From Ignavibacteria bacterium (GTDB lineage Bacteria; Bacteroidota; Ignavibacteria; Tepidaquicellales; Tepidaquicellaceae): a stretch of 64,000 nt of DNA. The notes beneath the pieces are model-generated. The model was not told the DNA's origin. It searched no databases and saw nothing but the letters and a program-made list of their open reading frames with translations. Below are positions 4,441 through 43,241 of this stretch, one piece after another (position 1 is the stretch's first letter; every line of letters starts with the position of its first letter). Made by a program: the position numbers and the translations under genes. The stretch spans positions 496,001 through 560,000 of the forward strand of contig DATAJP010000003.1 in NCBI GenBank assembly GCA_036262055.1. The letters run 5' to 3'.

Positions 4441-5058
4441 TTAAGCAACAACTTCATTTATTACCTTTAGAGTGCCGTCAGGACTTACGTCCTGACGGTT
4501 TAAATCAAAATCCCAATCAGTATAAACCTCAATAATACTATTATCACTTTTTAAATAATTTCCGGCACTTGAATAAATCCAATTTTCGGGATTTGAAACT
4601 AAATTTGCTTTAACAGGATTATTATGAATATAATTAATTTTTATTTTTAGAATTTCTTCTGAATAAATAACAACATCATCAAACCTATCCATCCATAACT
4701 TAAACATTTGATTCTTCTTCCCAATTGCATTACTTCTCAATGATTCAATAATTTCGGCATGATTATCTGACTCAAGTTGTTTTCTTATCTTAGTTGAAGT
4801 ATACTTTTTAAAATCTCTCATAAAATCTGATATACTTTCATTTGTTGGAAGTGCTATTATAAAATGAATATGGCTCGGCATAATAACATATGATAAAAGA
4901 TAAGCGTTATGTTCTTTAATTAAGTATTTTAAAGAAGAAATTAAAATATCACTATAATTATTTCCAAGAGAAAAAATTCTTTCAAAATTCATAACGGTAG
5001 TAGTTATAAATAATACATTTCCGTTTTTATCAAATAATGTTCTATTTCTTAAACCCAT
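4441..5058 (-). mobile_element. REP-associated tyrosine transposase (RAYT, IS200/Y1 family)
   Basis: A 205-residue single-domain Y1 transposase. The HUH motif appears as M-P-S-H-I-H (His63, His65), the candidate catalytic tyrosine is Tyr86 in RDFKKYTSTK, and the family hallmark Y-I-H-N-N-P-V-K-A lies near the C-terminus. The length fits RAYTs, which are domesticated single-copy transposases that handle REP palindromes. Three such palindromes are present: two just upstream of the start (5072-5095, 5119-5140) and one inside the 3' end of the coding region (4475-4498), where it encodes RQDVSPD. The element separates the dehydratase gene from its activase gene. All catalytic residues are present, so it may be active. 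Confidence 0.88.
4475..4498. repeat. REP palindrome inside the RAYT 3' end
   Basis: Perfect 10-base arms, CCGTCAGGAC and GTCCTGACGG, around the tetraloop TTAC. It lies within the transposase reading frame and encodes part of its last 20 residues. It matches the two upstream copies in stem and size. Confidence 0.85.
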
Positions 5059-5071
5059 TCTTAATTTATTT

Positions 5072-5095
5072 CGGTCAGGACATAAGTCCTGACCG
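5072..5095. repeat. REP palindrome upstream of RAYT, copy A
   Basis: Perfect 10-base arms, CGGTCAGGAC and GTCCTGACCG, around ATAA. It begins 14 bases from the RAYT start codon. The outer stem bases differ from copy B in a paired way (the G-C to C-G change keeps pairing), so the structure is retained. Confidence 0.85.
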
Positions 5096-5118: not shown

Positions 5119-5140
5119 CGTCAGGACTTACGTCCTGACG
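5119..5140. repeat. REP palindrome upstream of RAYT, copy B
   Basis: Nine-base arms, CGTCAGGAC and GTCCTGACG, around TTAC. With copy A it forms a closely spaced pair resembling a BIME. It lies 15 bases beyond the stop codon of the dehydratase gene. Confidence 0.85.
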
Positions 5141-19541: not shown

Positions 19542-19563
19542 GAGACGCAACATTTTGCGTCTC
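19542..19563. repeat. GAGACGCAA hairpin, copy downstream of ypdA
   Basis: Arms GAGACGCAA and TTGCGTCTC with loop CATT, 27 bases after the ypdA stop. The same hairpin lies after mnmH (43220-43241) and inside the DUF2400 gene (24070-24091). The position after a stop codon suggests a possible terminator role. Confidence 0.75.
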
Positions 19564-23761: not shown

Positions 23762-24553
23762 TTAAAACTTTTTGTCGAGCCGGACATGACACAGCGCAAA
23801 ATCATACTTCACAGGGTCATCAGCATCAAATTCCTTTAACTCATTCGTCAGCTCAACCGCATATTTCAAATCACAGCTTTTCCTCTTAACCATCTTCAGC
23901 TTCTGGGTCACTTTATAAATATGCGTATCAACAGGCATAACCAATTTACTCTTATCAATTTCTTTCCATATCCCCAAATCAATATCATCTTTCCTTACCA
24001 TCCACCTCATAAACAAATTCAGCCGCTTGCAAGTCGAATTATCCTCCGGCGACGGCAGTAAATATCGTAGAGACGCAATATTTTGCGTCTCCTTTTGATT
24101 CTTGTTTTGCGTCTCCTTTCTTAACTCACCCACTAACCCGGTCAATCCATCCAAAATATTCTCATTCTCATTTTTATGATGCTTCAAAAAGACTTTCTTC
24201 AAGCTTCCATGTTCCTTCAATACCCTGTTCAGATTTTTAAACAAATAAACCAAATCCTTCTCATCATTGAACCTGTAATACAGCCCTCTCAAAAATTTTT
24301 TGTCTTTTTGTTCATTAAAATTCGCAGTAAATTCGTAAATATTCATCGAAGTTCTTGAAAATAATTCGCCGGTGAACTTATTTATCTGATCAACCTGCCC
24401 ATAGGCAAAACAAGAGACAATCAGCCCGGCAATTTCGATATCTCGTTCGTGCACAAACTTATGCAGCACCCAAACCGGGTCTTTCGATGAATGTTTATGC
24501 TTATACTGATTATAAACCTGTTCTAAATATTTTTTTAAGTCGGTTTTGTTCAT
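23762..24553 (-). CDS. DUF2400 (TIGR02757) family protein with repeat-derived insertion
   Basis: A 263-residue protein with the family landmarks DPVWVLHKFVHERDIEIAGL at 25-44, SCFAYGQVDQI, FLRGLYYRFN, the strongly conserved CKRLNLFMRWMVRKDDIDLG (175-194), and MPVDTHIYKVTQKL. The family has a helix-hairpin-helix look reminiscent of DNA glycosylases, but no activity is established that I can name. Residues about 145-162, rich in K, E, T, Q and N with two KETQN units, are encoded by the GAGACGCAA dispersed hairpin. The frame is kept and the conserved blocks on both sides are intact. Confidence 0.85.
   Translation of the reverse strand: MNKTDLKKYLEQVYNQYKHKHSSKDPVWVLHKFVHERDIEIAGLIVSCFAYGQVDQINKFTGELFSRTSMNIYEFTANFNEQKDKKFLRGLYYRFNDEKDLVYLFKNLNRVLKEHGSLKKVFLKHHKNENENILDGLTGLVGELRKETQNKNQKETQNIASLRYLLPSPEDNSTCKRLNLFMRWMVRKDDIDLGIWKEIDKSKLVMPVDTHIYKVTQKLKMVKRKSCDLKYAVELTNELKEFDADDPVKYDFALCHVRLDKKF
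24068..24121 (-). repeat. GAGACGCAA hairpin plus extra half-unit inserted in frame in DUF2400
   Basis: A full palindrome (24070-24091, arms GAGACGCAA/TTGCGTCTC, loop TATT) and a further TTGCGTCTCC half at 24107-24116 lie inside the coding region. The 54 bases are a multiple of three. The same palindrome is intergenic at 19542 and 43220. Confidence 0.85.
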
Positions 24554-43219: not shown

Positions 43220-43241
43220 GAGACGCAACATCTTGCGTCTC
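43220..43241. repeat. GAGACGCAA hairpin after mnmH
   Basis: Arms GAGACGCAA and TTGCGTCTC with loop CATC, beginning 4 bases past the mnmH stop and followed by CAAAAAAT. It may act as a terminator between the convergent mnmH and kgd genes. Confidence 0.75.

Follow-up and report, generated by a model that had tools for sequence, protein, structure and literature searches.

How does a hairpin that otherwise lies between genes come to be translated within an enzyme? This question is raised by a DUF2400 gene in a 64,000-nucleotide stretch of DNA from an Ignavibacteria bacterium (contig DATAJP010000003.1, positions 496,001 to 560,000), the whole of which is called the window here. To answer it, we examined the gene and its predicted protein, the distribution of the hairpin in the genome, the transposase genes that may be linked to it, and the orthologues of the host protein.

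The DUF2400 gene and its REP-derived loop

The host gene and the repeat features within it are as follows, in window coordinates.

23762-24553, minus strand: DUF2400 / TIGR02757 gene, intact, 263 aa, identified by its ORF, Pfam PF09674 and TIGR02757
24068-24121, minus strand: REP-derived loop RKETQNKNQKETQNIASL, residues 145-162, placed by codon map and orthologue alignment
24067-24091, no strand assigned: complete REP in the DUF2400 gene, GTAGAGACGCAATATTTTGCGTCTC, with a perfect 9-bp stem and the 4-nt loop TATT
24105-24119, minus strand: second direct copy of the half-unit AAAGGAGACGCAAAA (a 15-mer, given on the coding strand), encoding KETQN

The ORF matched Pfam PF09674 with 253 bits (E 4e-75) and NCBIfam TIGR02757 with 223 bits. 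Its AlphaFold model (mean pLDDT 91) was aligned by VIA-align to endonuclease III (1orn) at Z 12.9 over 187 residues (rmsd 3.3), a Z that helical models can reach, and OGG1, MutY and NTHL1 followed close behind. Helical folds can give good structural scores without kinship, through a common arrangement, and the Foldseek E-values were weak (0.03-0.2). The model supports, and does not prove, an HhH-GPD DNA glycosylase-like (endonuclease III-like) fold, and the gene is probably of DNA-repair type. The best Foldseek match, a DUF2419 queuosine enzyme, was rejected as weak (E 0.03); endonuclease III aligns equally well or better. We also noted that residues 207-211 form a conserved P[VL]DTH block. 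A literature search on DUF2400 function found only a passing mention.

The REP within the gene starts with a GTAG foot (24067-24070), and its stem arms (24070-24078 and 24083-24091) form GTAGAGACGCAA-TATT-TTGCGTCTC. The hairpin is predicted to fold at -10.4 kcal/mol as single-stranded DNA (z -5.3) and at -15.2 kcal/mol as RNA (z -4.8). On the coding strand, 24067-24091 is read as ETQNIASL. The half-unit is found at 24081-24095 and again at 24105-24119, the latter copy lying upstream in the reading direction, with a period of 24 bases, or 8 codons. The complete palindrome and the direct half-unit together span 24067-24119.

A sequence-only reading of this DNA had described a hairpin with a duplicated half-unit inside DUF2400, encoding two KETQN units between conserved blocks. 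We confirmed both points: the 15-mer is directly repeated 24 bases apart, and residues 145-162 map to 24068-24121. The element limits given there, 24068-24121, hold for these residues but not for the GTAG foot, which begins one base earlier at 24067.

In the predicted translation around the loop, GELRKETQNKNQKETQNIASLRYLL, residues 145-162 follow a helix (134-144) and precede the conserved block STCKRLNLFMRWMVR. The pLDDT was 78 for residues 141-150 and 57 for residues 151-160, the weakest internal block. The model, confident elsewhere, thus places the REP segment in a loop of low confidence.

Copies of the palindrome in the window and the genome

We found the core sequence GAGACGCAA at 7 sites in the window (19542/19555, 24070/24083/24107 and 43220/43233), where 0.34 occurrences are expected and none of 100 shuffles reached 7. 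Two further complete copies in the window accompany the DUF2400 copy.

19542-19563, no strand assigned: intergenic REP copy, GTAGAGACGCAACATTTTGCGTCTC from 19539, matching the DUF2400 REP
43220-43241, no strand assigned: intergenic REP copy directly after a stop codon, with convergent genes on either side

These are the intergenic hairpins at 19542 and 43220 that had been read from the sequence, and each contains a pair of GAGACGCAA sites.

Genome-wide, GAGACGCAA is present at 60 sites and its reversed control at 14. For the full palindrome, GAGACGCA-N-TGCGTCTC, the corresponding counts are 25 copies and none. Of these intact copies, 24 are intergenic, between convergent (12), same-direction (11) or divergent (1) gene pairs, and only the DUF2400 copy lies within a real gene. 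If the fraction of coding DNA is 0.88, as estimated in the window, the probability of finding at most 1 of 25 copies in genes is about 1e-21. The DUF2400 copy is therefore a rare exception within a strongly extragenic palindrome family. Other genes of this genome that seemed to carry a REP were rejected, the overlaps being ORF ends, spurious short ORFs or a likely upstream start.

A GTA/TAC foot is present on at least one side of the stem in 23/25 copies and on both sides in 8/25. The copies are mainly single palindromes, and the transposase element described below forms the one clear inverted pair. An Rfam search of the window gave no match, and a literature text search for GTAGAGACG found no relevant paper.

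A transposase gene associated with the palindrome

Elsewhere in the genome we identified a RAYT gene with a palindrome copy on each side, the two being inverted relative to each other. This 177-aa gene of the Y1_Tnp family (L154:2086-2619; element L154, G000:C2:689862-690451) is flanked so that the GTAG feet point outward and the hairpins abut the start and the stop of the gene. It matched Pfam Y1_Tnp with 26.7 bits (cut-off 23), and carries the HUH motif as NHIH, a WQ motif, and YISENI where subclass 2.4 has YIxNNP. Its score against NCBIfam REP_Tyr_transpos (NF047646) was 45.8 bits, below the curated cut-off of 80, and it is a divergent relative that falls outside the NF047646 equivalog.

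The right end of this element recurs in the DUF2400 gene.

24067-24096, plus strand: 30-base stretch in DUF2400 shared with the RAYT element (right end, G000:C2:690422-690451), 30/30 identical, E 4.3e-9

Among all genomic GAGACGCAA sites, the 15-mer AAAGGAGACGCAAAA occurs twice in DUF2400 and otherwise only at this right end. We also examined RAYT homologues from other genera, where the flanking palindrome varies and its GAGAC start is kept (GAGACTCGAT, GAGACGTTGCA, GAGACGCAATGCATT and others). GAGAC palindromes were found at 13/30 RAYT-homologue loci, compared with 0/30 other Y1_Tnp loci from relatives. On this evidence, palindrome and transposase are well supported as a pair, and the 177-aa RAYT is probably the cognate transposase of the palindrome.

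The window itself contains a second RAYT gene (4441-5058, minus strand; 105.9 bits to NCBIfam REP_Tyr_transpos). It was rejected as the source of the palindrome, being flanked by a different one, GTCAGGAC...GTCCTGAC. Palindromes of the form GTCAGGAC-NNNN-GTCCTGAC lie around it at 4477-4496, 5074-5093 and 5120-5139; the exact form has no further occurrence in the genome, making this locus a REPtron without dispersed REPs. Two more Y1_Tnp genes are located at G000:C3:180900-183400 (L173) and G000:C3:984000-986500 (L174), and the L173 gene has a 29-base inverted repeat, CGCCGTTGTTGGTGTTTTCACCAACAACC, on its flanks, like published TIR-flanked transposases.

In-frame copies in other genomes

In 5 of the 30 RAYT homologues, the palindrome lies in frame inside the RAYT gene, and three of these five genes read it in the frame used by DUF2400 (e.g. 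AVETRHASSLQ). The RAYT gene of genome G151 (L254 1267-1944, minus strand) is a sixth in-frame case and reads ETQSSETQSSETQSLETQSIASLR; here the full palindrome is preceded by decayed 15-base half-units. Tandem half-units are thus present in two unrelated proteins, G151 RAYT and DUF2400, with periods of 15 and 24 bases, both multiples of three. The second frame of the palindrome opens with TAG, leaving two of three frames open, and one frame gives an open polar peptide, [V/K]ETxxIASL. DUF2400 reads the palindrome in an open frame, as is expected of a survivor.

Two other genomes are rich in such palindromes. Genome G216 (C1, L223-L252) has 62 copies. Most are paired in REPIN-like fashion, inverted at a spacing of about 70-80 bases and with loop bases that complement each other; a second 20-bp palindrome form, GAGACGCAAGGTTGCGTCTC, is also present. 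The apparent in-ORF copies of this genome were not counted, as most are either within about 50-80 codons of the start of an ORF or in short ORFs of doubtful status. In a genome of the same family (G018, L175-L181), there are about 80 GAGACGCA...TGCGTCTC palindromes. Many of them form tandem arrays, whose period ranges from about 48 to 190 bases, and most lie outside long genes.

Comparison with DUF2400 orthologues

None of the 49 DUF2400 orthologues, which include 31 from the same order, has the segment 145-162. The sequence-only reading had named orthologues outside this lineage carrying the same segment as the finding that would speak against an insertion, and had proposed to check whether residues 145-162 are missing from relatives. 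This comparison did not refute the reading: the peptide itself is missing from all 49. The same-order relatives do, however, have a shorter loop of variable length at this position. All orthologues have a variable, charged linker, and outside it the nearest ones are about 62% identical.

Between the conserved anchors, the linker has 38 residues here and 25-32 in the 31 same-order orthologues. This corresponds to a net gain of 6-13 residues, compared with 18 REP-like residues. Since the excess is smaller than the REP-like segment, the original loop has lost residues, or else some residues of the segment (e.g. NKNQ) are native. A clean insertion of 54 bases was rejected, as its removal would leave a linker of 20 residues, below the minimum of 25 among the 49 orthologues. 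Of the earlier suggestion that 54 bases preserve the frame, the in-frame reading stands, but the clean insertion does not.

We also sought an orthologue with an empty site; the relatives searched were all outside the genus, and a contig scan gave none closer. In genome G003 (C30; L104, L105), the DUF2400 orthologue is found as two adjoining pieces, with the break near residue 131-136, just before the position of the REP loop.

Relation to known repeat families

The RPEs of Rickettsia are palindromes that insert into genes without shifting the frame and appear in the proteins as additional loops. The DUF2400 segment had been likened to these elements, and we agree as to behaviour, both being in-frame insertions within protein-coding genes, but not as to family. 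Compared by description, RPEs belong to a different lineage, and the intragenic repeats RPE-4 and RPE-6 of R. conorii have been counted among the repeats with a CGTC-type terminal tag, which have no associated transposase (PMC3733652). The segment has GTAG/CTAC ends and a probable cognate RAYT. By its GTAG feet and its putative RAYT partner, the segment belongs with the GTAG-footed REPs.

Known GTAG-ended REPs are mostly intergenic, at gene 3' ends or between convergent genes, with occasional in-frame genic copies (Di Nocera 2013, PMC3733652). In other bacteria, many of the genes with REPs have roles in DNA synthesis and repair, and a RAYT flanked by palindromes has been termed a REPtron (PMC3733652). 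The palindromes described here share with these REPs their short GTAG-ended, hairpin-forming structure in the 20-40 bp range of this class, their mostly extragenic location, the in-frame genic exceptions and the REPtron; they differ in that the foot is often at both ends, not at one only. The main text of PMC3733652 makes no mention of Ignavibacteria or of the GAGACG stem.

In-frame REPs and double-foot REPs are features of TnpAY1 subclass 2.4, reported from Bacteroidetes (Quentin 2018, PMC6006769). The GTAG...CTAC double foot, the NH[IFV]H and WQ motifs, and in-frame REPs in a variable loop are common to both systems. However, the host gene in subclass 2.4 is the transposase, whereas here it is an unrelated enzyme, DUF2400. 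REPINs are likewise inverted REP pairs linked to RAYTs (PMC3116915), whereas single palindromes prevail in this genome.

Origin of the loop

From the copies observed, the RAYT gene between two of them, the reading in frame and the position in a loop, we assign a probability of about 0.82 to the following origin: a GTAG-REP copy mobilised by RAYT entered the DUF2400 loop in frame, its 5' arm was then duplicated, and the resulting peptide is probably neutral. RAYT, a single-strand HUH/tyrosine transposase, would recognise the GTAG-hairpin and move or copy the REP; the action of RAYTs on REP single strands has been followed in a cleavage and strand-transfer assay (PMC8266576). The copy that entered DUF2400, at a surface loop of variable length, would have been one with the sequence of the RAYT element's right end. 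Because the frame was open (ETQNIASL) and the length a multiple of three, the enzyme would have survived. The 5' arm would then have been duplicated by 24 bases, most likely through replication slippage at the hairpin, giving the second KETQN. Selection would have purged gene-breaking copies, which would explain why only 1 of the 25 copies lies in a gene.

That RAYT moved this copy is suggested by the shared end and the paired palindromes, and slippage by the repeated half-unit. The inserted peptide is probably a tolerated, neutral loop.

The REP may instead have reached DUF2400 without RAYT, by template switching, recombination or gene conversion between copies, in which case the link to RAYT would be historical. 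The REPs are mostly dispersed singletons, the insertion was not clean, and the half-unit suggests copying errors, all of which agree with such a route. We nevertheless consider it unlikely, as the copy shares 30/30 bases with RAYT's own end, and RAYT homologues are associated with varying GAGAC palindromes across the phylum.

It is very improbable that the hairpin was retained as useful in the DUF2400 mRNA or protein, whether by pausing, by affecting mRNA stability or by providing an extra binding loop. Its RNA fold is stable, at the energy and z given above, and REPs are able to act as RNA elements (PMC3733652), but every REP copy is equally strong, so that nothing is specific to a function in DUF2400. 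Moreover, the segment is confined to this lineage, the orthologues of DUF2400 manage without it, and the loop is predicted at low confidence. Although the linker is variable and charged across orthologues, an ancestral protein sequence resembling the repeat by chance is refuted for practical purposes by the identity of 30/30 bases with the end of a mobile element (E 4e-9), the perfect 9-bp hairpin and the lack of the segment in all 49 orthologues.

Implications

In-frame REP insertions are already known: REPs have been published within genes (Di Nocera 2013) and in frame in RAYT genes (Quentin 2018), and the Rickettsia RPEs are another precedent. The DUF2400 case is a clear and well-documented further example. 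It extends the occurrence of REPs within genes to an Ignavibacteria-like lineage, and a single genome shows both the hairpin in a protein and a separate transposase locus with near-identical flanking hairpins.

As tandem half-units are seen independently in two copies within genes, they suggest a simple route by which a mobile hairpin can lengthen protein loops. It is conceivable, if rather doubtful, that the double-foot REPs belonging to this RAYT family lend themselves to insertion into proteins and that their 5' arm is then repeatedly duplicated in multiples of three. If this is true, a mobile hairpin would be the seed of growing translated loops.
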